This document shows, in pieces, positions 12,932-31,627 of a stretch of DNA of 64,000 bases. Below the pieces are notes generated by a model. That model saw nothing but the letters and a program-made list of their open reading frames with translations, was not told the origin of the DNA and did not search any database. Position 1 is the stretch's first letter. Each line of letters starts with the position of its first letter. Position numbers and translations under genes: made by a program. Location: IMG/VR virus record IMGVR_UViG_3300042301_002363, positions 1 to 64,000 of that record, one strand, 5' to 3'. The stretch is from a virus.

Positions 12932-15900
12932 TTACTGATTACGTTTTAACACATCAATTCTGTAATTAGGATCAAGTATATCTCTAAAGTTTTTAATACC
13001 TGTAAGGTCAACAATGTCTTTTACAATTTTTGCATCACCCTTTTCATATGCTCCTGATTTTCTAGAATAGAATGCATCTTTCCAAATAGATTGATACAAT
13101 TCACTATCATAATCTGGATCTGCTTCTTCACCACCATTCATTGTCATGGCCATTCCATATTTGATACCATGATTTAGCATTCTAATGGTTGCAGAAAATT
13201 CACGCACAAATGGTATTGCTGTTGTAAAGTTCTTAACGTATTCCTGAGAACCTTGTCCAACAGGGAACATGGATACAGTTTCACCTTTTGTACCCCAGAT
13301 CACTCTAATTGCATTACCTTCAAGCATGCTTAGTTCCTCATCATCGTCATCTCTACGTTTAACAAATGATAATAACATCATACTGATGACAGTTAATAGT
13401 GCCATTGCAATTGCGTCACGCCTTGCATGATGTACACGTTTTGCATAGAAATCACCAACATCTTCTGTTCTTACAACCTTACCTGTTTTAGGATCCTTGA
13501 TTACATAAGTTTTTAAACCACCAGACATTCCCATTTTGGAAAGAGTATTTGAACCTACCAAAAATTCTTTCATTGTATTTCCTACGCCAAACAACTTCAT
13601 TGATCTTGCAAATGCTCTCCAGTAACCTAATGCCATTTCTGAACCTTCCCAGTTAGGACGCAAATATCCAAATCTGTTTAGAAATTGTGGAACCAAGAAT
13701 TTTCTAAAGAAGAACACCATCTTACCAAGTATTCTACTTTCAAATTCTGTTTGGTCATTCCCTGCATAGTTACCTTGTGCTCTACGCATTTCTGAATAAA
13801 CAATATTCCTTATACGTTTTTCATCTTCTTTTGTATAGTTTACATCTTTTCTAATTACAAGATTACCATTGGCATCTTTGTAATATGCTTGATGAGAGGG
13901 TATCATAATAATATTCCCACTAGCATCTCGCTTAAAAGTTTTTTCACCAGTAACAGGATCAATAGATTCTATTTCTTCAAATCTGTAGTTATCCATAATT
14001 GCATACATTACTGTAACTGCAATTTCTGTATCACCTTTATCTTGAAGCATGTATCCTAACTCACCAACAGACGATAACTTTTCAGCCATTCTTCTTTTTC
14101 TTGATCCAGATGAGTTTTGAAAATACTTAATGATATCTTTTTGTGCAGGATTCATCATCCTGTAAAGCATTGTGCTTTCACTCAAGTCAGAAAGTCTACC
14201 CCAGTCTTTTAAATAATTTGCTAGAAAACCATTATACCCATACACTTTACCTTTTGCATAAAGCCAATTCTTTTTGCTATAATGATCACTGTCATTACCA
14301 CCAGCTGCAAGAAATGCTTGAACATTACCTGAAGTATAGTTTTTTGTTTGATTGACAATATCAAATCCAATTCTGATAAAACTTGTATACTTGAAGAAAG
14401 AATCTACCATCTTCTTCATCTTTCTACTTGCCTCTTGAGTACTTTCAGTAATACCATATAGATATTTACCATTCTCAAACTCAATGATCTTTAAGAGGTT
14501 ATCTATCTCACCAAGTTTTGTCTCAATATCAATTTTAGTTTTTTCTCCAGTCTGTGGATCTGTCACATAGATTTCACCTTTCAAACGATCTTTTGCTAAC
14601 TCATTACGTTGAAGTCTGAGAAATTCAATAAAACCTTTTGATACAGGGGCTACTTCTTGCATTGCAATATTCATGTGTGCTTCAGTAGTCCACTTCATAA
14701 ATGAACCAACAGCGTCAGTAGATTGTATTTCCTCATCAAGTTGATTAGAAAAACGCATGCGTATACGTGCACCAATATCACCATAGATATTTTCTGACAT
14801 ATCTTGTTGACCTTCAGCTTTCAAGTGTTTATCTACAAATGCATTATACTGCTTTGCAAAACCTCTACCAAATCCTTCATTTGCTATACTTTCAACAAGA
14901 CTAGCAGCAAAACCAGGAACAGTGTAACCAATTGTTCTACCTTCAATACGCTTTTGCATACCAAAGAAAATATCCATCATTGTATTGTAAAACTCAAACA
15001 TCTGAGGATTTTTTAACAAGTCAAGATACTTAGCATTTATGTTGTTTGTTGGAGCCTTGGTAGGATCAATAACAAAATGACCTTCGTCTGATACAATAAT
15101 TTCCTTTGGAAGAGGAATGCCATCATTACCCTTGATAAATCCAGGATTATATGCGCCTCTTTCAATTGTAAGTCTACCTGAGATATTTAATTCTGTAACT
15201 TCTTCAGGTGTTTCTTGTAGTGCTTCAATTTCTGAATTGCTAAGTTTTCTACCATCCAACGTCCAATTACCAATACGTAAGCGTTTAAGTTTGTAGTATT
15301 TAGGATTAGGAACAGTCTCCATGTATTTATCAGCAACAGTAGAAGATGGAAGTCTTTCAAAGTTAAATGACTTAGGAACCTTGTTTGCTTTTGTGTCGTA
15401 TCCAGTTGCAATACTTTGATATTTGTTGTAATGCGTTTTCTCATACCAGTTTCTGAAAGAATTTTCAACTTCACCAAATCTGCGTACAGAAAATATTACA
15501 TTATTCTCAGCCTCTTCTATTTCATCTGCAATACCTTTTGTTCTTGCAACAGCCAAATTAGATTGAGCATTATTCATCTCATTGAATGCAGTTTGTAATA
15601 ATCTATACTGTGTATCAAACTCTTCAATGTAATTAGGGTTCAACTGAAATGAAACAAGCTTTCTGATCTCTGCAGATATTTCTGCTACTTTTTTACGATC
15701 CTCTTTATCAAGTGTGCTCTTTTCTGTTTTCTTACCTTCAATAATGTCTTCAATCTCAGCCTCAATTCCATCTAATTCTGAAATCTCTTCATCAGTAAGA
15801 TACTTTGGATTAAAACGTCCTGCATTTTTATAAGGACCCATAATCTTTTTCTTCCTGTCAATAAGTTCTTTTATTGTTGGATCGCTTTGTACAATTTCTG

Positions 15901-18900
15901 ATCGCTGCTCATAAAGCTCATTCAGCTGATCATACCACTCAGCAGTTGGTCTAGTTACTGTATTGTCCTTATACCACTTGTCTAATTTCTCTGGACTATC
16001 TGAAAAACGCACGCGTGCATTCTTTTCCATTACCCTAAAGTAATTGTCATTAGTATCAAACTCATACAAACTATCTAACTCATCAAGATACGCAGCATAC
16101 TCAGGACTTCTTTCTGCAGCCTCCATTCTTAACTTTTTGGCTTCTGCATCAAGTTCTTTTAACCTGTCAAAGTCAGACTCTTCAAGTAATACTTCATTGC
16201 CTCTTCCTACACTGTATAGAATAACCTCTTGCTCAAGATATATTTCTTGCAACTTATCGCGAATGTCTTCTGGTAATTTTAACTGAAGATTATAAAATGA
16301 ATCAACGTATGGTAGATTAGAATTTTCTAACATCCACGCAATCATTGAACGTTTATGTTCATCTCTTTCTGATTGTTTTGCTAATAGCGCATCTTTTGCT
16401 TCTTGTTCAGCTTGTGCATCAATGCCAAATTTTTCTTGGTAAAGCGCATACGCCTCATAGTATTCTCTGTTGAGTATTCTAAGATTTTGCTGAAACCCTC
16501 TATATGCATTTTCATATTCTTCGCTGTAAGGTTTTACATACACAAGTCTACGTTGCTGCTTTACTTCTTTTGTTTTAGGGTCTTCATAAGATACAGTAAT
16601 CCACTCAGACGTAAGTTTGTTTATATCCTCTAATGAAAATCCTTGATCTTGAAGTGCACGAAGCATTCTGTCAAACTTTTGCAATTGTGGATCTGATAAG
16701 GTATTATACTCAGCTTGAGCTTTATGTTCCTTAAGCAATGTAGTAAAAGCAGAGACTGCTAAATCAGAGTTAGACGCTGAAGCAATTGCAGAATCCATCA
16801 TCCATCCTCCAAGTATTGTGTCAGAACCTTCATAAGGGTTTTGCATTCCAGGATAGAATGGTGATGTGTGGTCAGTAATACCATTGATATACTTTTCCAT
16901 TGCCTCCTCACTATATTCAAATCCATTAAGCAACATTTCAATTTGCATAATGCGTTTTTCAACTCTTTGAATTTCAGCAAGAACTATATCCCCATTAGGA
17001 CCCATCGCTTCTTTTACCTTTTCCTTGAAGTTCTTATTCATCAAAGAAAAGATAGAATACTTCATTTTTTTATAGATACCTAACTTTGGATTATTTTTAA
17101 GCATCTCAAGTTTATTCTTAAGATTTTCTAACTCAGGTATAAGAGCTTGGCGTTTTTGTTCATTTACACCAGAGAATACTTTTTCTCCAGGTGACATAAG
17201 AACTTTAACAGCATTCATCGTACCTATACGCTTAAAGTCTGACTGTATAGATTCTACAAATATAGATAGTTGTGTTAACCTTTGTCTCACAGGACTTGTT
17301 ACTGATAACTCACTACCTTCAATAGATGCTGCCTCGTTTACAACCTCATTCATAAAGTCAATGATTGTTGCTAAACTTGCACTTTTATTAAATGCAATAC
17401 GCACTGATTCAAAGTTTTTACTTTGCTCTTTAGCATCAGTTGTGCCAAGATATAGTTGAGTAGCTATTTTTGAAATTTGACTTAATGTATCTAAATCATT
17501 TTCCATCACATTCAACGCATTAAAGAAATTTGTTGAGTTTAATAGTACTGATGGAGATGTTGTTTTTAACTTTTCAGCAATCTGCTTTAAGTTATTCAAT
17601 GTATCTCTACGTGTTTTTAATAGCTTTTCTAATTCTTTATCACGTAATGGTTTGTTCTGAGCATCTTGGATTTCTTGATATGCTTTATCAATCTGACCAT
17701 TAATAACACTTTCAAGTATAGTTACAAAATCCTGCATGTTCTTATCAGTAGGATTTATGTCAAATAATTCTTCAGGTCTTTTGTTTCTGATTTCCTCTTC
17801 AGTGTATTCACCTGTTGGAACCTCAATTGCTACAGCTTTTTTAAAGTCTAAGACAACTTTGTTTACTGTATCAAGATCATTAAACCATACACCATCAGTA
17901 GTTAAATTAACACTACGTGCTTGATCGTAATAATCTTGCTCTTCAAATACATGAAGAACACTTCCTTTATAAGATTTATTGTCATCATCAATCTGATACA
18001 TCAATGCTGATATGATTTTATTAGCAACAGGTATATCACTTTGTAATAGAATATTTTCATATACATCCAGTTGGAGCATCCAGGTATCATACGTTGTACG
18101 TACAGGAAGTTCTCTGAACTTTTCTGCTGTACCTGGTTTGTTTCCAATTGGAAATTCTTTCAGTGCCAATCCATACAAAGCTCTGTCAACATTTACTTCT
18201 TGAGCACCTGTTATTGCATTTCTTTCAACAAGGTATTTTACCTTCTTTGTTTTAAAGTCATAGATGTGTACTTTACCAACAGCATCAATCATTAAAATAT
18301 CTAAACGCCCAATAACCTTGCTACCTGTTCTAGATGTACCAACAATAGTTACCTCTGGAAGAATGATATATCCACTTGCATTTTTAGAATTGACATGTGA
18401 CACCAAGCCCATTGCCATTTCATACATTTCTTCTTTAGAAAGTTTGTCAATGTCAAATGGATTTTTCTTTGTGTAATTCTCATACACTTTGTCAAAAAAC
18501 TCTTGACTATAAACCTGAGCTATGGTTTTGTTTTTAGCAATCGCCTCTTCTTGTGCAAGTTCTAAAAGCTCATGCATGAATGTACCAAACAATTTAAAAG
18601 CTTCATATTCTTTTGGATCACCTTTGAACTCTGAAGAACCAATAAACTTAGATACACTTAATGTTTGCTCTACAGCAGTACCATTTTTAGCTGCCTCTAT
18701 ATTGCTTTTTAGAAACTCTTGATATGCATCGTTCATGTCAATAAGCTTTTGCATTGTAGCTTTTTGATTTTTGTTTGCACGAAACTTCATTGTCTCTAGA
18801 ACCTGGCGTTGTTGTACAGCCCTTGACAATTTAAACTGATCAGATGCAAGAGAAAGTTGTTCATCCTTATCCTGAATTCTTAAATCTTTTAATATTTGTT

Positions 18901-19027
18901 TTGCCTTTTCAATTGATGGCACTTCATTACCATTACGCACAAATGCAGTCATTGCATCTGCTTCACTACTTAAGGCTATTACCAAGTCTTTCCAGGCTTG
19001 GTCATTTGGATTTGGACATGCACTCAT
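12932..19027 (-). CDS. giant virion protein with RecB-like PD-(D/E)XK nuclease motif and membrane segment
   Basis: A 2031-residue protein. Near the N-terminus, FMHELLELA (His152), GRLD (Asp243) and YDFKTKK (Asp257, Lys259) match the order and spacing of the RecB/AddB/Cas4-type PD-(D/E)XK nuclease core. Residues about 400-1200 are long charged helices, many probably coiled coil. A later region (KMVFFFRKFLVPQFLNRFG, about residue 1770) is aromatic and basic. A hydrophobic helix at about 1869-1886 (AIAMALLTVISMMLLSF) is followed by KRRDDDDEE. It lies two genes after the RNA polymerase gene, and in crAss-like phages giant proteins there are packaged and ejected. I infer an ejected protein that may cut or process DNA at or near the host membrane. 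The nuclease motif is well supported; activity is not proven. Confidence 0.75.
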   Translation of the reverse strand: MSACPNPNDQAWKDLVIALSSEADAMTAFVRNGNEVPSIEKAKQILKDLRIQDKDEQLSLASDQFKLSRAVQQRQVLETMKFRANKNQKATMQKLIDMNDAYQEFLKSNIEAAKNGTAVEQTLSVSKFIGSSEFKGDPKEYEAFKLFGTFMHELLELAQEEAIAKNKTIAQVYSQEFFDKVYENYTKKNPFDIDKLSKEEMYEMAMGLVSHVNSKNASGYIILPEVTIVGTSRTGSKVIGRLDILMIDAVGKVHIYDFKTKKVKYLVERNAITGAQEVNVDRALYGLALKEFPIGNKPGTAEKFRELPVRTTYDTWMLQLDVYENILLQSDIPVANKIISALMYQIDDDNKSYKGSVLHVFEEQDYYDQARSVNLTTDGVWFNDLDTVNKVVLDFKKAVAIEVPTGEYTEEEIRNKRPEELFDINPTDKNMQDFVTILESVINGQIDKAYQEIQDAQNKPLRDKELEKLLKTRRDTLNNLKQIAEKLKTTSPSVLLNSTNFFNALNVMENDLDTLSQISKIATQLYLGTTDAKEQSKNFESVRIAFNKSASLATIIDFMNEVVNEAASIEGSELSVTSPVRQRLTQLSIFVESIQSDFKRIGTMNAVKVLMSPGEKVFSGVNEQKRQALIPELENLKNKLEMLKNNPKLGIYKKMKYSIFSLMNKNFKEKVKEAMGPNGDIVLAEIQRVEKRIMQIEMLLNGFEYSEEAMEKYINGITDHTSPFYPGMQNPYEGSDTILGGWMMDSAIASASNSDLAVSAFTTLLKEHKAQAEYNTLSDPQLQKFDRMLRALQDQGFSLEDINKLTSEWITVSYEDPKTKEVKQQRRLVYVKPYSEEYENAYRGFQQNLRILNREYYEAYALYQEKFGIDAQAEQEAKDALLAKQSERDEHKRSMIAWMLENSNLPYVDSFYNLQLKLPEDIRDKLQEIYLEQEVILYSVGRGNEVLLEESDFDRLKELDAEAKKLRMEAAERSPEYAAYLDELDSLYEFDTNDNYFRVMEKNARVRFSDSPEKLDKWYKDNTVTRPTAEWYDQLNELYEQRSEIVQSDPTIKELIDRKKKIMGPYKNAGRFNPKYLTDEEISELDGIEAEIEDIIEGKKTEKSTLDKEDRKKVAEISAEIRKLVSFQLNPNYIEEFDTQYRLLQTAFNEMNNAQSNLAVARTKGIADEIEEAENNVIFSVRRFGEVENSFRNWYEKTHYNKYQSIATGYDTKANKVPKSFNFERLPSSTVADKYMETVPNPKYYKLKRLRIGNWTLDGRKLSNSEIEALQETPEEVTELNISGRLTIERGAYNPGFIKGNDGIPLPKEIIVSDEGHFVIDPTKAPTNNINAKYLDLLKNPQMFEFYNTMMDIFFGMQKRIEGRTIGYTVPGFAASLVESIANEGFGRGFAKQYNAFVDKHLKAEGQQDMSENIYGDIGARIRMRFSNQLDEEIQSTDAVGSFMKWTTEAHMNIAMQEVAPVSKGFIEFLRLQRNELAKDRLKGEIYVTDPQTGEKTKIDIETKLGEIDNLLKIIEFENGKYLYGITESTQEASRKMKKMVDSFFKYTSFIRIGFDIVNQTKNYTSGNVQAFLAAGGNDSDHYSKKNWLYAKGKVYGYNGFLANYLKDWGRLSDLSESTMLYRMMNPAQKDIIKYFQNSSGSRKRRMAEKLSSVGELGYMLQDKGDTEIAVTVMYAIMDNYRFEEIESIDPVTGEKTFKRDASGNIIMIPSHQAYYKDANGNLVIRKDVNYTKEDEKRIRNIVYSEMRRAQGNYAGNDQTEFESRILGKMVFFFRKFLVPQFLNRFGYLRPNWEGSEMALGYWRAFARSMKLFGVGNTMKEFLVGSNTLSKMGMSGGLKTYVIKDPKTGKVVRTEDVGDFYAKRVHHARRDAIAMALLTVISMMLLSFVKRRDDDDEELSMLEGNAIRVIWGTKGETVSMFPVGQGSQEYVKNFTTAIPFVREFSATIRMLNHGIKYGMAMTMNGGEEADPDYDSELYQSIWKDAFYSRKSGAYEKGDAKIVKDIVDLTGIKNFRDILDPNYRIDVLKRNQ

Positions 19028-19028
19028 T

Positions 19029-19610
19029 TTATAAACACTTTATTTTATCAAGTATATCGTCATTATTGTAGTTAAGACCTCGCATATTTGCGACAAGATC
19101 TCTAGCAGCTTTTACAAATTGATCTAGTCTCATTCTCTGACTGCTCTCACTATAAAGATACTCAATTACTGCAGGAGAAAGATCAAGATTGGCCATTTCT
19201 TCATACATATTATAAAGAGGATTGTCAGACTCTGGATTATCAAACAAGTACTCATCAGAGTATTCTATCCCAGCTCTTTTTGCATCTTCTTCTTGAATTG
19301 CTCTTGCTTCTATTTCATTAAATGCTTTCAAATACTCGTTATAGTATATGGTAACTAAATCCTGACTTGGATTAAATACAACCTCTTGACCATTAGACAT
19401 CTCTCTACGATACGCGACATTGCCTTCAAAAAGTTTATTGTTCTTATTTACAATGCTTTCAGCAACTCTATACGCTTGAGCTTTGCCACTTGGAAAAGCA
19501 GCGTTACTAATAAATAATGTATCAAAAGAGGTTTGCTGAATGTTCTTTGTTACATTAGGAGCAATTGCTTTTTTGATAATTGATTTTTTTATATCAGTTC
19601 TACATTTCAT
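19029..19610 (-). CDS. hypothetical protein between the two giant virion genes
   Basis: A 193-residue soluble, mostly helical protein with a basic N-terminus (MKCRTDIKKSIIKKAIAPN) and an acidic middle. No domain recognised. It sits one base before the 2031-residue gene and two bases after the 4004-residue gene, so it is certainly co-transcribed and probably co-translated with both. It may be a small subunit, a chaperone for packaging, or a split-off fragment of the neighbouring giants. It has no cysteine cluster, signal peptide or membrane segment. Confidence 0.6.
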   Translation of the reverse strand: MKCRTDIKKSIIKKAIAPNVTKNIQQTSFDTLFISNAAFPSGKAQAYRVAESIVNKNNKLFEGNVAYRREMSNGQEVVFNPSQDLVTIYYNEYLKAFNEIEARAIQEEDAKRAGIEYSDEYLFDNPESDNPLYNMYEEMANLDLSPAVIEYLYSESSQRMRLDQFVKAARDLVANMRGLNYNNDDILDKIKCL

Positions 19611-19612
19611 AG

Positions 19613-22600
19613 TTAACAGTTATTTTCATCTGTTGGGTCAATACTTGGTCTATTATTAGGCTTAATGATAGTCCTGTTCTGAGCAGCAAGAGCAAGTATG
19701 GCTTTTCTATTACCATCTTCTTCACCCCACATCATCCTCTTATTTGTTGTCAAAGATATGATAGTATTTTTAGATGTCACTATGTATTCTGTATCTTTAT
19801 ACTCTATGATTTTTGCAGCTATATCAAGTGCTTTCATATTTGCTTCAGCTACTGATATTTTAGATTTAGCACCTTCTAATAGTGGATTATAAAGTTGCCA
19901 TGTACCATTTGCATTTTGTTGAGTAACAATATAAGTTGTGCCATTATAATTAACATATCTTCCTCTTTGTATTTCAGGAACCTTTGCTTCATTTTCAGGT
20001 TGAGGTTTCATGCCCAATACATTCATAAGAGCTGCAAGAGAATTTTCACCAGCATCTATTTGATTCTGAGTCACATCAGTTTCTTTATCTATGCCTTCTT
20101 GCAAAATACCTGGATCATTCTTTTTCAATTGTGATTCAGAAATATCATCTGTGATAACAACGTTCTCAGTAGGTTTTTTACTTGTGTCTGGTTTTTTGTT
20201 TTCTTCACTCACATCAGTTCCAACTTTTTCACCAGCAGTGGTGTCAACAATATTTGTGTTGAATACAATTGATTCTTTTTTATCTATGTATCGCTTATAT
20301 GTTTCAGCATTTTCTGTACTGAAAGCAATTGGACTAAGTGCTTCTGAAGCATACTGTGATGGTATTATCTTATACTTTGCAAAGGTTCCAATATTTGAAA
20401 ATGTTGTTGTACCCATGATTGAATCAAACAAGTTAGATCCAATTGATTTTCCTTTAGAAGCATTGTTGTCAATACCCTGTAACACATATGTATTTAAACC
20501 AATACGCAAGATACTTGGGAATACAAACTCAACAGAGTCTTGTTCTGTCATGTCTTTTTGAATACCAAACATTCTACCAAGTGTTACATTTGCTTTTTGA
20601 TTTTTACCAGAAAGGTTTACAGTAAACTCTGAACCTAATGCGTCTGCTATATTTATACGATCTACTTTTGCAAGATCTGTACCTTCAGGAAACTGTAAAT
20701 CTAATGCATCAAGTACATAGTTCATTGCTTTAATCTTAGCTTCAGGTAAAGACTCTTTTGTCATATCCTGTTTTTCATCCAAGAATGCTTTTACAATAGG
20801 TTTTGAGAAATTTGGTTTCTTAGAGTTTATTGTAAACAATACTCCTCTTGTGTTGTTCTTATCTCTAAACTTAGGTATCTTTCTGTTATTATTTTCTGAT
20901 GCTGCAGCATATGCAATTTGATCAAACATCTCATCAAAAAACTTAATAACACCATCTTGTGATTTTTCTCCAGTATAGTTTAGCATAAAAGATTTGAAAT
21001 CTTCTTCAAAGTTTTTACTCTGAACAACTGACTCAATACCTTGTATAAACTCATCAATATAATTTGACAATGGAACTTTTAATTCTGCTGGCATATATGA
21101 TAAGAATGAACCCTCTTTGTATTGTAATCCTGTACGTACAAGGTCATGATAGAATAGACTTTTGACAAACTGTCTTTCATCTGTACCTCCTTGATTGTAT
21201 AAGAATGCAATATCATCAGCTATCTTACTTGCATATTCACCTTTGACTTTAGCTTTGCTTATCATTGATATAAATCTTTCACTTATACCCTGATAGCTTT
21301 TACCATTAAACAATACTGTTGCTGTGTTCTTAGATTCAGACTGACGCAACAATTTTAAGAATTCATTGTCAGGATATTTTTCTCTAAATCTTTCTACCTG
21401 TGTAAATAAATCATTTGTAAACCAGTACTCAGGAGTAAACGTTCTAAGTATCATCTCATCATCATTATCTAACAATGCTTGAATTGTTGGATTATTTACT
21501 TTTCTAGAACCAGGATAAGTCATTTTAAACTTATTCAATGCTAAGAAACTTGTAAGTGTATTTGAAATTGTCTTTGGATCTTCAAAGTATCCTTTAAACG
21601 CTGCTGTTATAGGGAAAAAGAATGGTGTTCTTTCTAAGAATATTTTAGAAAATTGTTCATTAGCATCATCTAATGCATCTTTTAAAATTGACCATACTTG
21701 ATTATCTCCAAACAACTCAGATGCAGATTCCTTATCAAAAAGCTTTTCATCATCTTTTAACTCATTGATGTTATCTCTCATCTTGTCAAAAGCTACAAGA
21801 CTTGGATTAAGTCTTTTAAACAAATTGGTAATACTAGCAGCTCTATTGATTGTCCATGTTTGCTGAGCTTGTTTTCCATAGTACATCAGCAAAATAATCT
21901 TCATTTCATTTTCAGTCAATGGTTGATCATTATCTGCATATACCATTTCAAAACCTATTGCAGATGGCGTAAGTTGATTATTTTTTAACGCATAAAGACT
22001 AAGTTTCTTTGGTGCAAATCCAATCTTAACTTTAAGTGGATTTTCAAATAACACCATGTCTTTAAATGATTTTGATGTAACAACCCCTGCAGCTTTTAAT
22101 CTATTAAGTGCAGACTCATCCTCTTCAATAAGTGCAGCTAGTTCTTCTTTTACTGCTTGATTGTAGAATTTGTAATCTTGTTCTAGATCTTCTGACAATG
22201 CAAACTGTGATTGTTGTACTGCTAACGCAGCTTTGCGCACCTCTGGTAAAAAGTTAAAGGCCAACGCAAACTCTGGATCCAATCCAATACCAATCATTGC
22301 AAGTGTGGTACTTGCGTTTACTTCATTCATTTGAAGAGCTGCAGGAATAGGATCTTTAGCACCATCAGCAAACATACCAAGTATGTTACCAATTATTGCA
22401 ATAACTCTTTGATCCTTTTCATTCATTTGTCCAAATGTATCTTTCAATACTATTCTTCCTTCAAGTGTTTGATATGCCCACACTATTGCTTTATCAGATA
22501 GCTTTAAGTTATATTGACTAGCTAATGACAAGAACTTGTTCATGACAGCTGTACGTCCAATACCATCCTTGTTCATGTTGTTTTCTACCTTAGACTCAAT

Positions 22601-25600
22601 CATGTTAGTAGGAGTAAACAAGTTGGATTTCTTTGTAATTGCTTTAAGATCAATTCCAAATGCAGATAAGATATCTTTAAATTCTTGTGTTGATGATCTT
22701 TGGTTTATGTATAAAAAGTTAAACACAGCTTCATTTGCAAGTATTTGCAAGCTTGCAGCAAGGTTTTTATTCTGATACTTTGGTGAAACCATTTCTGAGA
22801 AACCTGGTCTAGAAAGATATTGCGACACATTGCTTGGTATACCATACTTGGCAAGTGTATCCATTATTGCTTGATACTCAAATACAGAATCCAAATAGTT
22901 TAGTAACTCTTTTGTTTCACGTTGTTTTCTTACAGACTCTTTTCTTATTGCTTTAAGATCAGCCAGTTCTTTACCATAAATATTACGTGTCTTTGCAAGC
23001 TCTCTATTTTCTGGATTTTGTTCAGCTATCTCTTTTGCTTTTACATATAGTTCCTTAGATTCTTTTGTAAGTTCAAACATGTAATTTGTAAAATCTAATT
23101 GTTCTGTGTATTTAGATTTTAAAGCTACCTGTCTGAATGCACCCATAAACTTTTCATCACCAAAACCTAACGCTTCCATTACTTCAAACAATGGACCTTC
23201 ACCTGGCATTTCTATTGTGCCTTCATTTAAAAGTTCTTGTTTACGTTGTTTTATTGCTGGTGCAATATCTTCATGCTTAGACATGTAATGCATAAACTCA
23301 ATAAACTCACCAACTTCAGGATTGTCGTATATACTATAGTCACCATACAAAGAGTAATTTCCTTTGCCATTCTTATAGTATGACATCATTCTTCCAAACA
23401 ATGAGTCAATATCAAAGTCAGATCCTGCCAACAAGTGTACAAAATGTGGTACAATAATGTTGTTCATTTTAGAAGAATCAGTGAAGTCAACAACTTTCAA
23501 AGCAATCATTGAACGTTTATCTTCTGTAGGAATACGTACACCAAACATTCTGGTCAAGTTATCCATGTAGAACTGTTCTTGTTGTGCGTTCTCAAAAAAT
23601 GGTTTAGGAATAATTGCTTCTACATAATATAGCTTTGTTCCATCTGCTTGCTCTTCGACACTAATACCAAGTGGTCTAGATTTAAATCTTCTTGTGTCTT
23701 CAAATGCTTGTGGATTCTCACCAATCTCTTGTGTTGTTACTACTCTATTTTCTTGAGTATCAAACAATACATTATAACCAAATGAACTTTCATGGAAGTT
23801 TTTAAATCCTGAAACTTTTTCATCTGTTACGTTTTTGCTATACTGAGCCAATAAATAATACTCAAGAGTAGAACGTATTAGACTAAGGTTTGGATTAAAC
23901 ACTGGCGTGCCATCTGGTTTAACAGCAAACATATCAAGAATATTCTTTGGTGCATTTTGTTGTTGTAAACTATCACGTATCATTGTGAATAATTTACCCA
24001 TATCAAAGTCATCACCTTTTCTAAGAACTTCAGTAAAGTATAACAATCTTGCTTTTGTTGCCTGACGTAATGATAATTGATAATCATTAAGTGCAGTTTT
24101 TATATTTTGCATCGCAATGATGTCACCTTCAGAAACTGTTCTTCCTGTATTGCGTACTTCTGTTTCAATTATTTTTCTAAACTCTTCTTCATTGATATTA
24201 GCTGGAAGTAAAAGTTTTGACTGAACAGAATGTTTCGCTTTGTCTTTAACACCACTTGTTTCAACCTGCAAATACTTTGCACTGTTTGGAACATTAAGCG
24301 CTGCCATTTTAAAGTTAATGTATCCATCTTCTGTTTTTTCTGAGAAGAATACATCTACTGGTAGAAGTGTAGCGTTTTTAGATGCTGTAGTATCCATCAA
24401 CTGATCAATTTGGAAAAGTTCCATTGAGTTGAGAATGTTGTGCATCATTTGGCGATGTGGCATTGGCCTATAATAGGAGTGTATATCTCTATACAAATTC
24501 TGGATGTCAATATCTATTTTGGTTATTTGATTTTTGGCATCAGGCATTTCTGCTGCTAATTCACGATCCTTACGTAAATCATAAACAGACATGTATAATC
24601 CATGCAGCTCATCATATGTACGAGCAGTTGCTTCATCAATTGATTCTTCTCCTTGTGGTATGATATCAAGAATACTTACATCTGTTCTGTCAATATAACT
24701 TTCAGATTGTTTATGGTAAACATTGCGATCTGCTGTAATTGTTTTCTTAGCATTGTTGACTACCTTCATTGACTCAAGATATCGTGTTTCATCTTGAGTA
24801 AGTGCTCTGTAATGTTTAGCAACTAAGATGTACAAACCACGATCATCTAGCCTACCTAGTGTATCATGCATATCAATCTGGTGCATTAATGATGAAATAC
24901 TTTGACCATCAAAGATTTCACGCATCATGTCTGCCCATTTTACAACACGCCCATTAATATTTTCAACAGTATTACCTTTTGCTTTTTCAAAACCCTCCAG
25001 TAATTCCTCACGAATATTTTGATTAGGAATTGTAAAGTCACTTTCAATTTGTTCTGCATCAAAGTATGGTCCAAATTGAGGAAACTCTTCATGGATAAAA
25101 GCTGTAATAGTATTCATGTATGCAACTTTGTGACTTCCATTTTTCATATTGGATCCACTTGCCACAATTTTCTTTAGACGTTTTACATAATCTTGAGCGT
25201 TCTTTACGTTCAATGCCATGTCACCATCCATTAACTGATTTAAATAAAGTCCATTTCTCCAGTTATTCATGAACATATCAAACAACAATTTCTCAATTGG
25301 TTCAATTGCTGATGCTTCATTAGTACCATATGGTGTTCCATATGCATCTATAAGAGATTGTTTAGCAAAACCTTCTTTAAGAGATGTTGGTAACATACTT
25401 GAAGAATAATACTGAGATGGCAACAATGCTGCAACAGCTGGTCTTATTTCAGCCTTCTTATCTTTCTCATTAATAGGAAGTGTCTCTATTAAACCAAGTG
25501 TTTCAAGTTTTTCCAAATATGTTTGAAACTCTTTCTGTGCATAATCATTTAATGCTGATAACAAATCAGACATGTCTATCTCTTCAAATGCAACTTGTTT

Positions 25601-28600
25601 TTTGGCCAAGTCAATTAAATCATCTCTCAGAGATTGGTTATTTGGATCATCAAAGAAATCTTCTAACATGTTGAACCTGTAAGCTCTCAAACTTGAGTCA
25701 TCAACATTTGCTGTTACATTATCATCTTCTAATACAGCATTATATTTGTTTATTAACTCATTGCTTTTGCCATTTTCAAAATTAGCTTTCAAGTCAAGTC
25801 TACGATTCCACTCGCGAGATGCTCTATTGTATTCTTGATTTACAATAGAAACAAGATCCTCAACTATCTTAAGATACTTTCCTTGATAAAGCAATTGACC
25901 TTTGTCATTAGTTTGTTTTGCTTCTTTTGAAGTAAATGGCTGGTATATAGCAGATATTAAAAAGTTTGTAGATGTAGCCTCTAACTGATGGAATGATCTT
26001 AAGTATGTAGATATTTCATTACCTCCTTTGTCACGCAATACTTTTTTATCCATAAACGCTAATACCTGCAGCATGTGCAAAGATCTTTCGTCAACAGATT
26101 TAAAGGTTTGTCCTTTTTTAGTGACATCCCCAATACGTTGTTGTACGCCACCAAACATTGCTACAGTAAAGTTGTCTAAGAACAACTGCATTTTTACGCT
26201 GTCTGCATTAACTTCTCCTTTTAAAATTGGACCAAGTAATGCATTGTCTTCCATGAATGATCTTAATGTAGTTTCAAAATATGGATCATCAGCCAATGCT
26301 TCTTCTAATGTCATTGTGTTCAAACGCTGACCAAGTAGTAATAATGGATTGTATTTTGTAAAACGATAGATTGGTTTACCCTCAGCATTTTTTACAACAC
26401 TTGGTATTTCTGTTGGATCATACTTCACAACATATGCAGATGCCTTTTTAAGAATAGTAAGCAATCGTTTTGCATCTTTATTTTTAGATTTCTCATCATC
26501 TAGTATATTTCTAATACCACTATTTGGTTTACCACTTTCAAGATAAGATGCGTCTAAAACAATCTTCAAACTTCTGAAAAAGTCTTTTTCTAAATACTGC
26601 TCTTGTCGTACAAAGTCTTCATTGACATCATAAAACTTTTGCAGTCTTATATCAACATCAAGATTGATATTATTTTCAACCTTGTTAATTCCCATCAATG
26701 ATAATCGCACTAATGATTTTGGAACTCTCATTCCAATTGTAATCATAGCATTGTGGATTTCATCAGTAAGCTTTTGTAAACGCATTGTTTGACCAACCAT
26801 TCCATCAAGAATATCTGGTGCGTTCATAAAGTTTGTGGCAAAGTTTTTAAGATATTGAACTGCCTCTTTAAACTCATCAGTGTTTGCATCTGTTGAATGC
26901 TTCTTAATGAATCCTGAAATAATATCATTACGTTTTTTAGTAACGTCTGCATCAACAACCTTGTCAAATACTCTAAAGTTTACAGACTCAGAACGTAATA
27001 ATTCTTCGCCAGAAGTGATGTCTTCCATGTTAACCTTACGTGGAGTAGATACATTGAACATCACATTATTCAACTCAACACCATGTAATACTTCTACAAT
27101 AAGATTTAGTAATTGCTTATTGGTTTGTGCAACACCATTTGAGTCTGCTTTTGTACGTGTTTGTATTTCATTGAATATTGTCTGAAGATCTTTACCCACT
27201 TGATCGTATCCATCTTCAATCATTTGTTCTGACATTACACCAATGCTATCAATGATGTTTTTTGGATTAATGCCAGCTGTTATTTTCAAAAGTGTAGGGA
27301 ATAACACTTGTCCATCAATCATACGTGGAAAGTATATTCCATTCTTTTTATCAAACTGATCACTTCTAAGAGTAGAAAAGAATCTTCTTATTTGAGCTAC
27401 ATAAGAATCCATGCGATTATATTCTGCCATTCCAGAATCAAAGTCATTGCTTTCTAATTCTTCTTGTGCTGATACGCGTTCATCATCTTGTACCTCAGTT
27501 GCAGTTTCACCATTAAATGTGTTTTCTACTTCCTCTGAATCTAACGTAAACTCATCATTTTCTCTTAGTATCTGTACACTGTTAGCTTTGGTATACTTGT
27601 CTTTTACCAATCGTTTCAATGTTTCAAAAGAGTACTGACCCATAGTGTTGTCTATAACTTCACCATTAATTAGTCTTATCTTATTTACGTTAGCCTTACT
27701 GTCATACTTTGAATCACCAGTAAGGTTAATATCATTTACATTTAAACCCTTCATTCTTGCACCAAGAATAAATCTGTAAGATGATATCAATGGTCCATAA
27801 TCTTTTTCAATCTGCTCTCTTGCTGCAGGATTTTGCGCAACAAGTTTTTCCATACTATAAACCTCACTTAGAATTTTATCTGCAGCACGTTGGAATTTAG
27901 TTTCAAAAGTATCTGACTGAACTGCATCTTGAAATATAACACCAACCATCATGTCAATCAATTGGTTTTGTTCAGAAACACTAAGTGTAGAATTTTTCTT
28001 TTCTACGTTACCTTGTTCATTTGTATTATACTTTACAAGTCCATCAATTAATTCATATGCAACTTGACCATTGTACATGTCAGATTTAATAGTTGCTGTT
28101 TTGTAGTATCCAGTTTTCACACGGTCATACACAGCTTCTATCTGAGTTCTATTTTTGACAAAGAAGTTAAGTAACTTTTTAAGCATGTCAAAGAATATTT
28201 GCAATGCTGTTTTAGGTTTTCCTTTTCTTTCTTTGCTCATGTATTTTTGAAAGCCATCAGCAAGTATTTCTTCTGCTACTAACTCAGCAAGCACATCATA
28301 GTTTGTAATAGATAAATTTCTTACTCTTGCAAACTCTTTCAATGATAGTGATGTAAAGTTGTCAGAATGCTTTGGGTCATCCATTATTTGTTTGACTAAC
28401 ACCTTACGTTCTGAATCTGTTAAAAGATATCTAAAGACACCATGAAATGCTTCATGGTAGATTGTACCTTTACCAGTAATAGTATCATTTAGGTAAATGA
28501 TTTTGTCTTTAAACATTCCTAAAACTGTACCATCAATTTTAGCCAGATTGATCATATCCTTTAATGAACTTGTATCAAGTCCAAACTGAGGTAAGTTTTC

Positions 28601-31600
28601 AGCAAGCCATTGTGATTCTGTTAATATATCTTGTTCAGTAGCAACTTCAATACCTGTACCTTCAGCAATAGAGAATGGAACATCATCATCAGTAAAGTCA
28701 ATTACATCATTGTCTTCATCGTTTTGATTTTCATCAGTAACATCTTCTTCTGTTTCTGTAGTATCATTCAGGATAATTGGCGTACTGCTAACATTATCTG
28801 GTGTAATTTTTACAGAAGAATTTTCTTTGTCAGCAACCTCATCTACAATAGCTTTTTCTTCTGAAGTCTGATCAAGATTTTCAGAAGTTTGATCAGCCAT
28901 TGATACATTAACAGGAGACTTTGCAACAAGATTAAATGATCTACGACCAGTAGATTCATACACTTTTACATTTTTCATGGATCTGTTGTACGAACTTCTA
29001 GCATCGCTTTGAGTAGATAATGGTGAATTAATTTTCAAAACACGTACGCCTTCATCATTTTCTCTTGAGAATAAATCTTCTATTTGGAAATTTGTATATG
29101 GAGCAAAGTCTTCATTAAGCGCATCTAAAAATTCACCATATACATTATCAGGATTTGCCTTAATATATTTGGTAACAGAGTCTAGAACTGTTGCAGTAAA
29201 CTTCTCTTGTGCAATAGATACTTGCTGTGCAAGATTTTTAACATTTAGAGATGCTGTTGGTAATTTTGCTAATTCAAAAACTGTTGTATAAAATTGCACC
29301 AAATCATCTGCCTTGGATAAATCTAATTTTGATAATGCAATGTTTTCTGATTTTACTATACCAACAAGAGGTCCTTCAGTAAGTGCTTTTGATAATAACA
29401 TAATTTCCTTTTCAGGAATTATAAAATTATACGCGTACTTAGAGTTATCAGACTTAAGAATGATGTTACCATAACGAGAATCTTTTGAACCTCTGTATGG
29501 GCGTATCTCTACTTGCAACGCTCTTCCATTTTTAATGGTAGATGTTGCAAAGTCAATAGTCAATTGTGGTTCTGCTTTTCCTGGCATTCTTACAGGATCA
29601 AACTGATACATTGTCTTCTGCATTGCTCTTATGTTTGCAGATTTATTTATATTAGTTGGATCAATGATTGTTGCCATGGTTGTGATAAACTTTGCAAAAA
29701 ACTCAGGGTTTTGCAATTGGTATACCTGATCAACAATAGCATAAGAGATTTCACCAGTAGATGGAAACTTCAATACAAAATGCATTGTTTTTGTCACACG
29801 AGTCAATGGTTGATTTGTTTTCATCAACTCAATCAATCGTGCATCCTCTTCTTGAAATAATGTTTTTACTTTTTCATTTAGATTCAGTACATCCTCAATG
29901 TATGTTTTTTCAGTAAGCATTTTGACTTCTCCACCAGGCAGTGTTACTTTAATTCTTTCATTAGCTGATAAGAAAGTAGAACTGACATAGTTGATTGTAG
30001 CAAATTTTGGATCAAAGGTTTTGTAAAAGTAAAAAGGCAGTTTGCGTTCTTCTTCAGATACAGCATCTCCTTTTGCATCAATTTGCACTACTGTTACTGT
30101 TTGACTAAATTGAGGATTCTTTTCTACAAGTTCTTTAAGAGTTGTTTTTACAGGTTGTGAAGAACGCGTATTGGTAAAATCATACATCTGCAAAAAGTCA
30201 TCAGTGACATCAATTGATGTTCCTGTATTAAAAGCTTCTTCAATTTTATTGGATATCTTGTCTTTGAACTCTTGATACAATTTTTGAGAAGCAACAATAG
30301 AAAGGATGTCAGAATTATTTAAGTCCTGTACATTGTTTCCTGCTTTCTTAACTGACATATCCTGAAGCATTTTCAAATGTCCAGGATTTGTAAGATCAAG
30401 TTTTTCTGTAGAGTTGTCACTTGACACAAATACAAAGTTGTCCATAGAGTATATGTAAAACTTTTTACCTGTTGCAAGTATCTCACCTACCAACGCAAAA
30501 TCTTGTTCACTTGCTTTTGGTCTTGATACAGTAAGCACTTTGCCATTTGGATTAGACTGAAGATATGCAACCTGAGTTGAATTCTCAAAAGTTTCATAAT
30601 CTCTTTTTGCAAGAGCTGCATATTCTGTTTCTGTTGCTGCGAGTTCTTTTAATCTTTGAACACGCATATCACCAAAGTCACTTAGCTTAACAGCAGTAAT
30701 TTTAATACCTGATGATGGTGATGACATCTTACTTAGTTCTGTAAGGATACTAACATGGTCTTCAGGATTAATTGCATCTACTGTTAAACCAGACGCAAAG
30801 AAATCTTCTTTGAATACTTGCTTGCCATCATTTGAATCAGACCAGTCTGCAGGTCTTGCTGATTTTCTTGCGATAATATTTATAGGATCAATTTCTGTAA
30901 GTGTTCCATCGCTTTCAATCTTGTTAAGCATACCATCATATTCAATGGCTTCAATCATAGAACCATCCTTTAATGTGACAAGAACGTTATCTAATTGAAT
31001 AGTCTCTGCAACAGAATCAATAGGAATATAACTTGACTTAGGCTGCAAACTGTCAATGTAATCATCTATTGCAGAATACAATACCTGTTTGTATGAGTTA
31101 TCTGCTTTAGATAAATCACCAATTACTTCTTTTAATTGACCACGTATTTGATCAATGGCATCTGTCTTATCTTCTATTGTATCAAATTTATAAGTTGATA
31201 CATAGTTCTTTAATAACTGAAGAACACCTCCAGCTTTTGTTAAGTCTTGAAGAGTGATTAATGATTGCTTACCTAACTCTTCAATTGCTTTTGATATACC
31301 ATCATAAGTTTGAGGTCTTGGTTTTTTCAAATCAAAAAGCGTAAAAGCATTTGATAAATACTTAGCTGTATCATCAAACATGGAGTCTGTTCCAAGATTG
31401 ATAATATCCAGTCCTTTACCAATATTATACTTCTCTTGATTTAAACCAGAAAGCCCATTGTAGATATGGGCCATATTGTGCAGAGCTAATTTCTTTTGCT
31501 CTTCTGTCAAATTTGCACTTAGAATAAATCTTGCTGCGTTATCATAGTTAGTGTAAACACTTGGACTTAACCTAATTAAGTTTTCTACTACAGGTATATA

Positions 31601-31627
31601 TTGTTCAGTAGTTAAAGCACATCCCAT
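19613..31627 (-). CDS. giant virion RNA polymerase polyprotein with zincin domain
   Basis: A 4004-residue protein. LLAGSDFDIDSLFG carries Asp2737, Asp2739 and Asp2741, the DxDxD catalytic loop of crAss-type single-chain virion RNA polymerases (phi14:2 gp66 and relatives), which share a double-psi beta-barrel core with RNAi-type polymerases. About 1680 residues upstream, after an acidic linker (about residues 960-1000), IYHEAFHGVFRYLL contains HExxH (His1058, Glu1059, His1062), followed by VLAELVAEEILADG, which can supply the third zinc ligand of a zincin peptidase. The C-terminus (about 3880-3930) has an SH3/KOW-like module, GRYVNYNGTTYIVT. The known relative is about 2180 residues, so this version is nearly twice as long. 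In that system the enzyme enters the host with the DNA and transcribes early genes. The polymerase call is secure; the protease may mature the polyprotein or attack a host target. Confidence 0.85.
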   Translation of the reverse strand: MGCALTTEQYIPVVENLIRLSPSVYTNYDNAARFILSANLTEEQKKLALHNMAHIYNGLSGLNQEKYNIGKGLDIINLGTDSMFDDTAKYLSNAFTLFDLKKPRPQTYDGISKAIEELGKQSLITLQDLTKAGGVLQLLKNYVSTYKFDTIEDKTDAIDQIRGQLKEVIGDLSKADNSYKQVLYSAIDDYIDSLQPKSSYIPIDSVAETIQLDNVLVTLKDGSMIEAIEYDGMLNKIESDGTLTEIDPINIIARKSARPADWSDSNDGKQVFKEDFFASGLTVDAINPEDHVSILTELSKMSSPSSGIKITAVKLSDFGDMRVQRLKELAATETEYAALAKRDYETFENSTQVAYLQSNPNGKVLTVSRPKASEQDFALVGEILATGKKFYIYSMDNFVFVSSDNSTEKLDLTNPGHLKMLQDMSVKKAGNNVQDLNNSDILSIVASQKLYQEFKDKISNKIEEAFNTGTSIDVTDDFLQMYDFTNTRSSQPVKTTLKELVEKNPQFSQTVTVVQIDAKGDAVSEEERKLPFYFYKTFDPKFATINYVSSTFLSANERIKVTLPGGEVKMLTEKTYIEDVLNLNEKVKTLFQEEDARLIELMKTNQPLTRVTKTMHFVLKFPSTGEISYAIVDQVYQLQNPEFFAKFITTMATIIDPTNINKSANIRAMQKTMYQFDPVRMPGKAEPQLTIDFATSTIKNGRALQVEIRPYRGSKDSRYGNIILKSDNSKYAYNFIIPEKEIMLLSKALTEGPLVGIVKSENIALSKLDLSKADDLVQFYTTVFELAKLPTASLNVKNLAQQVSIAQEKFTATVLDSVTKYIKANPDNVYGEFLDALNEDFAPYTNFQIEDLFSRENDEGVRVLKINSPLSTQSDARSSYNRSMKNVKVYESTGRRSFNLVAKSPVNVSMADQTSENLDQTSEEKAIVDEVADKENSSVKITPDNVSSTPIILNDTTETEEDVTDENQNDEDNDVIDFTDDDVPFSIAEGTGIEVATEQDILTESQWLAENLPQFGLDTSSLKDMINLAKIDGTVLGMFKDKIIYLNDTITGKGTIYHEAFHGVFRYLLTDSERKVLVKQIMDDPKHSDNFTSLSLKEFARVRNLSITNYDVLAELVAEEILADGFQKYMSKERKGKPKTALQIFFDMLKKLLNFFVKNRTQIEAVYDRVKTGYYKTATIKSDMYNGQVAYELIDGLVKYNTNEQGNVEKKNSTLSVSEQNQLIDMMVGVIFQDAVQSDTFETKFQRAADKILSEVYSMEKLVAQNPAAREQIEKDYGPLISSYRFILGARMKGLNVNDINLTGDSKYDSKANVNKIRLINGEVIDNTMGQYSFETLKRLVKDKYTKANSVQILRENDEFTLDSEEVENTFNGETATEVQDDERVSAQEELESNDFDSGMAEYNRMDSYVAQIRRFFSTLRSDQFDKKNGIYFPRMIDGQVLFPTLLKITAGINPKNIIDSIGVMSEQMIEDGYDQVGKDLQTIFNEIQTRTKADSNGVAQTNKQLLNLIVEVLHGVELNNVMFNVSTPRKVNMEDITSGEELLRSESVNFRVFDKVVDADVTKKRNDIISGFIKKHSTDANTDEFKEAVQYLKNFATNFMNAPDILDGMVGQTMRLQKLTDEIHNAMITIGMRVPKSLVRLSLMGINKVENNINLDVDIRLQKFYDVNEDFVRQEQYLEKDFFRSLKIVLDASYLESGKPNSGIRNILDDEKSKNKDAKRLLTILKKASAYVVKYDPTEIPSVVKNAEGKPIYRFTKYNPLLLLGQRLNTMTLEEALADDPYFETTLRSFMEDNALLGPILKGEVNADSVKMQLFLDNFTVAMFGGVQQRIGDVTKKGQTFKSVDERSLHMLQVLAFMDKKVLRDKGGNEISTYLRSFHQLEATSTNFLISAIYQPFTSKEAKQTNDKGQLLYQGKYLKIVEDLVSIVNQEYNRASREWNRRLDLKANFENGKSNELINKYNAVLEDDNVTANVDDSSLRAYRFNMLEDFFDDPNNQSLRDDLIDLAKKQVAFEEIDMSDLLSALNDYAQKEFQTYLEKLETLGLIETLPINEKDKKAEIRPAVAALLPSQYYSSSMLPTSLKEGFAKQSLIDAYGTPYGTNEASAIEPIEKLLFDMFMNNWRNGLYLNQLMDGDMALNVKNAQDYVKRLKKIVASGSNMKNGSHKVAYMNTITAFIHEEFPQFGPYFDAEQIESDFTIPNQNIREELLEGFEKAKGNTVENINGRVVKWADMMREIFDGQSISSLMHQIDMHDTLGRLDDRGLYILVAKHYRALTQDETRYLESMKVVNNAKKTITADRNVYHKQSESYIDRTDVSILDIIPQGEESIDEATARTYDELHGLYMSVYDLRKDRELAAEMPDAKNQITKIDIDIQNLYRDIHSYYRPMPHRQMMHNILNSMELFQIDQLMDTTASKNATLLPVDVFFSEKTEDGYINFKMAALNVPNSAKYLQVETSGVKDKAKHSVQSKLLLPANINEEEFRKIIETEVRNTGRTVSEGDIIAMQNIKTALNDYQLSLRQATKARLLYFTEVLRKGDDFDMGKLFTMIRDSLQQQNAPKNILDMFAVKPDGTPVFNPNLSLIRSTLEYYLLAQYSKNVTDEKVSGFKNFHESSFGYNVLFDTQENRVVTTQEIGENPQAFEDTRRFKSRPLGISVEEQADGTKLYYVEAIIPKPFFENAQQEQFYMDNLTRMFGVRIPTEDKRSMIALKVVDFTDSSKMNNIIVPHFVHLLAGSDFDIDSLFGRMMSYYKNGKGNYSLYGDYSIYDNPEVGEFIEFMHYMSKHEDIAPAIKQRKQELLNEGTIEMPGEGPLFEVMEALGFGDEKFMGAFRQVALKSKYTEQLDFTNYMFELTKESKELYVKAKEIAEQNPENRELAKTRNIYGKELADLKAIRKESVRKQRETKELLNYLDSVFEYQAIMDTLAKYGIPSNVSQYLSRPGFSEMVSPKYQNKNLAASLQILANEAVFNFLYINQRSSTQEFKDILSAFGIDLKAITKKSNLFTPTNMIESKVENNMNKDGIGRTAVMNKFLSLASQYNLKLSDKAIVWAYQTLEGRIVLKDTFGQMNEKDQRVIAIIGNILGMFADGAKDPIPAALQMNEVNASTTLAMIGIGLDPEFALAFNFLPEVRKAALAVQQSQFALSEDLEQDYKFYNQAVKEELAALIEEDESALNRLKAAGVVTSKSFKDMVLFENPLKVKIGFAPKKLSLYALKNNQLTPSAIGFEMVYADNDQPLTENEMKIILLMYYGKQAQQTWTINRAASITNLFKRLNPSLVAFDKMRDNINELKDDEKLFDKESASELFGDNQVWSILKDALDDANEQFSKIFLERTPFFFPITAAFKGYFEDPKTISNTLTSFLALNKFKMTYPGSRKVNNPTIQALLDNDDEMILRTFTPEYWFTNDLFTQVERFREKYPDNEFLKLLRQSESKNTATVLFNGKSYQGISERFISMISKAKVKGEYASKIADDIAFLYNQGGTDERQFVKSLFYHDLVRTGLQYKEGSFLSYMPAELKVPLSNYIDEFIQGIESVVQSKNFEEDFKSFMLNYTGEKSQDGVIKFFDEMFDQIAYAAASENNNRKIPKFRDKNNTRGVLFTINSKKPNFSKPIVKAFLDEKQDMTKESLPEAKIKAMNYVLDALDLQFPEGTDLAKVDRINIADALGSEFTVNLSGKNQKANVTLGRMFGIQKDMTEQDSVEFVFPSILRIGLNTYVLQGIDNNASKGKSIGSNLFDSIMGTTTFSNIGTFAKYKIIPSQYASEALSPIAFSTENAETYKRYIDKKESIVFNTNIVDTTAGEKVGTDVSEENKKPDTSKKPTENVVITDDISESQLKKNDPGILQEGIDKETDVTQNQIDAGENSLAALMNVLGMKPQPENEAKVPEIQRGRYVNYNGTTYIVTQQNANGTWQLYNPLLEGAKSKISVAEANMKALDIAAKIIEYKDTEYIVTSKNTIISLTTNKRMMWGEEDGNRKAILALAAQNRTIIKPNNRPSIDPTDENNC

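Follow-up and report, generated by a model that had tools for sequence, protein, structure and literature searches.

A distant crAss-like phage with a RecB-like nuclease in its last cargo protein and with cysteines confined to the junctions of the cargo chain

The stretch of DNA analysed here, hereafter the window, comprises positions 1 to 64,000 of the IMG/VR virus record IMGVR_UViG_3300042301_002363 (88,097 bases as a whole), and the gene in question is an open reading frame (ORF) on its minus strand which encodes a protein of 2031 amino acids (aa). The protein carries a RecB-like PD-(D/E)XK nuclease with an apparently intact active site at its N-terminal side and a module related to known virion proteins at its C-terminal side. 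It is the last of four consecutive cargo proteins in which every cysteine lies close to an end where one protein meets the next. The nuclease family, the relation to virion proteins and this junction-cysteine rule were all computed here. The best overall explanation, with a probability of about 0.6, is that the protein is an ejected, nuclease-bearing cargo subunit which would stand last in a train of disulfide-joined proteins. The four links, designated A, R, S and N, are encoded on the minus strand as follows.

31640..37219, minus strand: first link A, 1859 aa, with a single cysteine at 1857
19613..31627, minus strand: link R, 4004 aa, homologue of the virion RNA polymerase (vRNAP), with cysteines only at 3 and 4004
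28442..28456, minus strand: HEAFH zincin-like motif of the RNA polymerase (RNAP), residues 1058-1062, in a segment that is the C-terminus of gp47 in crAss001
23405..23419, minus strand: DFDID catalytic motif of the RNAP, residues 2737-2741
19029..19610, minus strand: link S, 193 aa, a fusion partner of the RNAP in sister phages, whose only cysteines are 3 and 192
12932..19027, minus strand: last link N, 2031 aa, an ORF with 24 homologues of the same architecture

The coordinates of the last gene agree with an earlier sequence-only reading of the window. Judged by its genes, the window phage is a distant crAss-like phage and a member of Crassvirales to which no named family is assigned. This assignment follows from its head and packaging genes (PHROG matches to TerL, portal and major capsid protein) and from its giant RNAP. 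Matches of the TerL protein are nearly all to Crassvirales and their close kin, with about 22-28% identity. The 4004-aa protein, encoded by the next gene upstream but one from the 2031-aa gene, has the DFDID motif of crAss-like virion RNA polymerases, and its catalytic region matches the RNAP of crAss002 and jaberico. Relatives of the 2031-aa protein were collected from IMG/VR, where the relatives of the phage are found on contigs of up to about 124 kb.

The N-terminal domain almost certainly belongs to the RecB-like PD-(D/E)XK nuclease family. Its extent and its motifs, whose residues named below are invariant in 25 sequences (relatives at 40-98% identity), are the following.

17753..18772, minus strand: nuclease domain, residues 86-425, by Pfam PDDEXK_1, AlphaFold and Foldseek
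18572..18574, minus strand: His152 of motif I, in GTFMHE
18353..18355, minus strand: Glu225, in the LPE of the second strand
18299..18301, minus strand: Asp243, in GRLD
18251..18259, minus strand: Asp257-Phe-Lys259, in DFKTKK, with Asp257 and Lys259 invariant
18059..18073, minus strand: Gln319 to Tyr323, QLDVY, the Q..Y motif of the RecB family, with Gln319 and Tyr323 invariant

The Pfam family PDDEXK_1 matches residues 140-291 at 29.9 bits against a cut-off of 22 (E = 6.6e-7) and is matched in 23 of 23 family sequences scanned, and the domain occupies the same position in all 24 compared relatives that possess the full-length protein. Structure prediction, which had been proposed as a check, returned the alpha-beta PD-(D/E)XK core in an AlphaFold model of residues 86-425 with a mean predicted local distance difference test score (pLDDT) of 86.8 and a predicted template modelling score (pTM) of 0.87. 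The best matches of this model in the PDB by Foldseek were EXO5 (E 1.7e-5), AdnA, Cas4 SSO0001, ACE1 and RecE, and its best viral matches include crAss-like giant proteins annotated as exonuclease or PD-(D/E)XK. The sequence-only reading had proposed a RecB/Cas4-type site made of His152, Asp243, Asp257 and Lys259; the site and the numbering of all four residues are borne out. The argument from their spacing is not, as the bare pattern H-x(60-120)-D-x(10-18)-[DE]xK is present in 98.6% of 1000 shuffles. The full RecB signature (GTxxH, GxLD, DxKT, QLxxY), including the QLxxY element which that reading had not mentioned, has one match in the real protein and none in 1000 shuffles. Searches for more distant relatives were negative: the nuclease profile had no match in a PDB sequence search, the full-protein profile had only weak PDB matches that are probably chance similarity of coiled coils, the 2031-aa protein had no match in PHROGs, and no relative of it was found in a scan of bacterial and archaeal genomes. 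An Fe-S nuclease of the Cas4/EXO5 type (also AddB) was ruled out since the domain is without the four Fe-S cysteines; residues 80-440 have no cysteine in 24 of the 25 sequences and two in the remaining one.

The seven catalytic-motif residues (H152, E225, D243, D257, K259, Q319 and Y323) suggest an apparently intact, Fe-S-free enzyme which would cleave DNA. It is improbable that only the fold has been kept, as a catalytically dead DNA-binding or structural element of the transcription cargo. Many giant phage proteins do retain degenerate enzyme folds, and crAss001 gp47 and other Steigviridae show no obvious histidine of motif I, but the seven residues hold down to 40% identity, and the ratio of non-synonymous to synonymous substitution rates (dN/dS) is 0.016 at residues 86-345, the lowest in the whole protein. 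Synonymous divergence of the gene is far above the non-synonymous. As for the substrate, host or competitor DNA early in infection would be favoured over the ends of the phage genome at about 45:35, the rest going to counter-defence or other roles. Enzymes of the RecB type often resect DNA ends, crAss-like phages have genes for Sak4-like annealing proteins, and the protein would be delivered beside the incoming genome. Hence a tentative alternative is that the nuclease acts on the phage genome, in its end resection, circularisation, packaging or recombination, rather than on host DNA; against this it may be said that the free-standing PD-(D/E)XK nucleases of complete relatives could serve instead.

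An argument for delivery with the virion comes from the other end of the protein.

12935..14980, minus strand: C-terminal module, residues 1350-2031, common to RNAP-associated virion proteins of Crassvirales

This module aligns with that of Cellulophaga phage phi14:2 gp65 and crAss001 gp49 (hhalign probability 97.3, E 2e-11, 422 columns). The genes of these two proteins lie directly after the vRNAP gene; in the window the 193-aa gene intervenes. By homology and position, the 2031-aa protein is an RNAP-associated cargo subunit, the positional counterpart and distant homologue of gp65 and gp49. The crAss001 proteins gp47, gp49 and gp50 have been detected in virions by mass spectrometry (PubMed Central PMC10172136), and the annotation of phi14:2 gp65 and gp66 states a basis in tandem mass spectrometry. 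Of these, gp47 holds a related nuclease with the GxxD, DxK and QxxY motifs. The A proteins of cr116, cr126, cr128 and DAC15 have the nuclease element too, and in Azobacteroides phage ProJPt-Bp1 it lies close to the N-terminus of the last cargo protein. The 2031-aa protein is thus very probably virion-delivered, by analogy with those homologues, and the earlier proposal of a giant ejected nuclease gains support because gp65, gp49 and the nuclease-bearing gp47 are found in virions. Giant nucleases of the ejected kind are nevertheless no novelty, as Yutin et al. (2021, PMC7886860) had noted a PDDEXK domain in a large transcription-associated protein of some crAss-like phages. An AlphaFold model of the C-terminal module was set aside as too poor (pLDDT 50).

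The payload at the front of the last link is not the same in all phages. For example, in the last cargo protein of Leptolyngbya phage Lbo-JY46 (13353-21599) the place near the N-terminus that holds the nuclease in the window protein is taken by a GNAT acetyltransferase domain (residues 122-210, Pfam 34.1 vs 20.7 bits). It seems that payload domains, GNAT in one phage and nuclease in another, have been exchanged.

The second finding concerns the cysteines of the block.

19016..19018, minus strand: Cys4, the sole cysteine of the 2031-aa protein and its junction cysteine, invariant across 25 sequences

The four consecutive cargo proteins, 8087 aa together, have six cysteines, all within 5 residues of the meeting ends: Cys1857 of A, Cys3 and Cys4004 of R, Cys3 and Cys192 of S, and Cys4 of N. 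The first link has no N-terminal cysteine and the last no C-terminal one. The rule was scored as a cysteine among the 6 residues that begin or the 12 that end a protein, with the first ATG taken as the start of IMG/VR ORFs. The genomes were reached via similarity of TerL, RNAP or the C-terminal module, not via cysteines. Among 29 genomes (the freshwater clade, Steigviridae, Intestiviridae, Suoliviridae, Fipvunavirus and others; "freshwater clade" being only a working name for the nearest relatives of the window), a terminal cysteine is present at 102 of 104 junction ends, at 0 of 26 free N-ends and at 0 of 27 free C-ends. Five further genomes, which include a member of Crevaviridae, follow the same rule (11/12 junction ends, 0/8 free ends), so that in the pooled 34 genomes a terminal cysteine is present at 113 of 116 junction ends and at 0 of 61 free ends. 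Of the cargo residues in the 29 genomes, 0.062% are internal cysteines, against 1.02% cysteine in 155 control ORFs of the same phages. A nucleotide artefact is not favoured as the source of these cysteines, which are encoded by TGT as well as TGC and lie at varying distances from the end; moreover, the A and RNAP genes of several Steigviridae are convergent. Phage phi4:1 (Lightbulbvirus) showed no comparable cargo block in the stretches read and is uninformative for the rule. Nothing on junction cysteines in crassviral cargo was found in searches of the open PMC literature, and an earlier mention elsewhere is possible.

Gene fusions serve as natural experiments on this rule. Six genomes of the freshwater clade encode the RNAP together with the 193-aa protein in one gene, which keeps the N-terminal cysteine of the RNAP and the cysteine ending the small protein (usually IKCL) and has 0 or 1 cysteine elsewhere in five of the six. 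Intestiviridae and Crevaviridae have the RNAP fused to the last protein and keep the cysteine pair only at the first junction. Likewise, Suoliviridae, Fpv3 and G012 have a fusion of the first protein with the RNAP and keep pairs only at the later junctions. Fusions at three different junctions thus each remove exactly the two cysteines of that junction. They were read from the position of DxDxD and from module matches, except in ProJPt-Bp1, in which no DxDxD was found and which was assigned by order and size. The breaks themselves also move: the zincin-like segment of the window RNAP (profile positions 880-1117) aligns with the C-terminus of crAss001 gp47 (2040-2293), and therefore the break between A and R has shifted along the thread, and the cysteines with it. 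As far as the sequences tell, junction cysteines mark breaks and not domains. Annotated zincin fusions occur in Intestiviridae as well.

Several points weigh against a disulfide train with a nuclease in its last link. The window phage is an uncultured virus known from sequence alone. The global TM-scores of the ten best PDB matches of the nuclease by Foldseek are low (0.15-0.32 of the query), and therefore only its core is comparable to them. The genomes are related, so the counts of junction and free ends are not independent, yet the fusions hit three junctions in different families. The first protein of the window clade has no detectable homology to gp47, and its role is assigned by position. 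Two exceptions are crAss002 gp33, which departs from the rule only with its annotated start (the next Met gives MSC), and cr273_1, in which the cysteine stands ahead of a low-complexity tail, at 49 residues from the end. In cr116_1 an intron creates two ends which are not true ends, and of these one was scored as a hit and one as a miss. Some RNAPs of other families are rich in internal cysteines (up to 25, in cr130_1), and therefore the cysteine-free rule is strict only in part of the set. Lastly, gp47, gp49 and gp50 are not resolved in the cryo-electron microscopy of crAss001, where no bond is visible (PMC10172136). As to cr116_1 itself, its RNAP is split inside the DFDxD catalytic motif by an apparent intron with a homing endonuclease, and the second part of this RNAP ends in a cysteine, as the junction rule predicts.

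A different use of the terminal cysteines is the other account to be weighed. The protein would then be an ordinary virion-delivered nuclease, and the cysteines would form an inter-subunit metal site, a homodimer, an intrachain bond between the N- and C-termini of the RNAP, or an attachment to portal or tail. The disulfides proposed here are themselves read from sequence, the middle links have one cysteine per end and could close on themselves, and the tail proteins of crAss001 employ inter-subunit disulfides. Against this, the first link has only a C-terminal cysteine and the last only an N-terminal one (with none at the 61 free ends), and therefore an intrachain bond cannot be the general use; the fusions delete exactly the pair of the junction concerned; and two cysteines alone make no usual metal site, while the sequence around them is not conserved. 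Such other uses are hence unlikely, and the joining of the cargo links end to end by disulfides is slightly favoured over its absence.

In the proposed train, one thread would be cut into separate genes, and the C-terminus of each link would be disulfide-bonded to the N-terminus of the next in the chain A(1859)-R(4004)-S(193)-N(2031), with the 2031-aa nuclease protein last. We infer the ejection of this protein, the formation of the disulfides, the stop at the membrane, and the cleavage with its target. The 2031-aa protein would be packed in the virion and ejected with the vRNAP; the train of about 8100 residues would pass the tail from N to C in fixed order, and reduction in the cytoplasm would separate the links. 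The nuclease would enter at the front of the last link, the C-terminal helix and acidic patch described below would arrest the rear of the train in the inner membrane, and the nuclease would be left in the cytoplasm adjoining the incoming DNA. Inter-subunit disulfides between other virion proteins, those of the tail, are documented in crAss001, several of whose tail constrictions require partial unfolding of the cargo; the same study ascribes the order of ejection to packing and to interactions between cargo proteins (PMC10172136). Put more generally, crassviral cargo may be a pseudo-polyprotein of about 4300-8100 residues in two to four genes, with disulfide-bridged breaks that vary by lineage, exchangeable payloads, N-to-C ejection and cytoplasmic reduction, a generalisation with even chances of being right. 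Its payloads would be the RecB nuclease here, the acetyltransferase in Lbo-JY46 and, in other cases, zincin segments; the inner membrane may be where the train is stopped, by a helix close to the end of its last link.

The helix is defined by two adjoining features.

13361..13417, minus strand: hydrophobic helix, residues 1871-1889, possibly a membrane or stop-transfer helix
13334..13360, minus strand: KRRDDDDEE, directly after the helix

With a Kyte-Doolittle score of 2.14, it is the only strong hydrophobic stretch of the 2031-aa protein. The sequence-only reading had placed it between KRR and DDDDEE; the helix is real, whereas both motifs, KRR and then DDDDEE, lie on its C-terminal side and the N-terminal flank is HHARR. 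Of 19 N proteins of the families examined, 18 have a comparable stretch near the C-terminus with 3 or more acidic residues after it, and in 17 of the 19, including crAss001 gp49 and phi14:2 gp65, it lies 109-142 residues before the end. It is therefore a feature of the cargo family and not of the nuclease. Anchoring in a membrane by this helix is plausible. A buried helix of the RNAP-associated module, with no membrane anchor, is a serious competitor which we hold somewhat less probable than its opposite: several homologues are only moderately hydrophobic (1.4-1.7), the module is poorly modelled, and in crAss001 a transmembrane helix is reported for gp45 and not gp49 (PMC10172136), but the score in the window and the recurrence of the stretch with its acidic patch speak against it.

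For the most abundant gut viruses it is still to be explained how giant ejected proteins pass in order through a narrow tail. The junction-cysteine rule, which holds at the level of residues with very few exceptions over many genomes, offers a testable answer with regard to the order of ejection. If true, the disulfide train would explain the avoidance of cysteine elsewhere in the cargo proteins, and the rule would mark cargo genes in unannotated phages. The nuclease, for its part, indicates that enzymes other than polymerases ride with the cargo into the host.

Some neighbouring genes deserve mention. A 697-aa protein (window 8867-10960) with 43 cysteines (6.2%) adjoins the cysteine-free cargo block, and a 1479-aa cysteine-free protein of the same block (window 47686-52125) has a HEIGH zinc-protease-like motif at residue 1288. 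A second, free-standing PDDEXK nuclease is encoded near TerL (G000 82418-83089, outside the window), and most sister genomes have one or two further free-standing PDDEXK nucleases. The window also encodes a B12-type ribonucleotide reductase (5555-7462) and a 371-aa protein (3530-4645) with two PAS domains, in which Pfam finds no output domain. A 415-aa virion structural protein (10978-12225) is up to 64.7% identical to proteins of cyanophages (S-RIM12 and others), matches far closer than those of any other gene searched, which points to a recent exchange and perhaps to a cyanobacterial host.

Among known systems, crAss001 is the nearest in kind (Bayfield et al., 2023, PMC10172136). Its gp47, gp50 and gp49 are likewise three giant RNAP-related cargo proteins of the virion, with the nuclease in gp47 and the C-terminal module of the window protein in gp49. 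The same terminal cysteine pattern is present: C2339 of 2341 in gp47, C5 and C2404 of 2412 in gp50, and only C5 in gp49. It differs in that the nuclease stands before the RNAP, in gp47, and not at the start of the gp49-like protein, that gp47 is on the opposite strand to gp49-gp50, and that there is no extra 193-aa link. Phage phi14:2 resembles the window in having the gene of gp66 (vRNAP) followed by that of RNAP-associated gp65, and in the C-terminal module, hydrophobic helix, acidic patch and terminal cysteines. However, gp65 has 1421 aa and no nuclease match, and the preceding 1797-aa protein likewise has none. The last cargo protein of ProJPt-Bp1 (1551 aa) has the same architecture, with PD-(D/E)XK on the N-terminal side and an N-terminal cysteine, but its sequence is very distant and a single gene encodes both A and R. 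Yutin et al. (2021, PMC7886860) made the same general PDDEXK observation, which in its relevant passages comes with no residue-level, virion-delivery, membrane or cysteine analysis.

The RecB/Cas4/EXO5/AdnA/RecE clade shares the H, GxxD, DxK and QxxY motifs and provides the Foldseek matches, whereas the window nuclease is without Fe-S cysteines and is part of a 2031-aa phage cargo protein. The virion RNAP of N4-like phages and gp14-gp16 of T7 are likewise ejected and nearly or wholly cysteine-free (0 in N4 vRNAP, 0 in T7 gp15, 0 in T7 gp16, and one, at position 2, in T7 gp14), but they have no cysteines at protein junctions. The loss of cysteine in the ejected vRNAP of N4-like phages has been attributed to passage through tail and periplasm (PMC3715699, PMC3915230). 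To this N4-type avoidance of cysteine, cysteines kept only at the junctions would add an ordered linkage.

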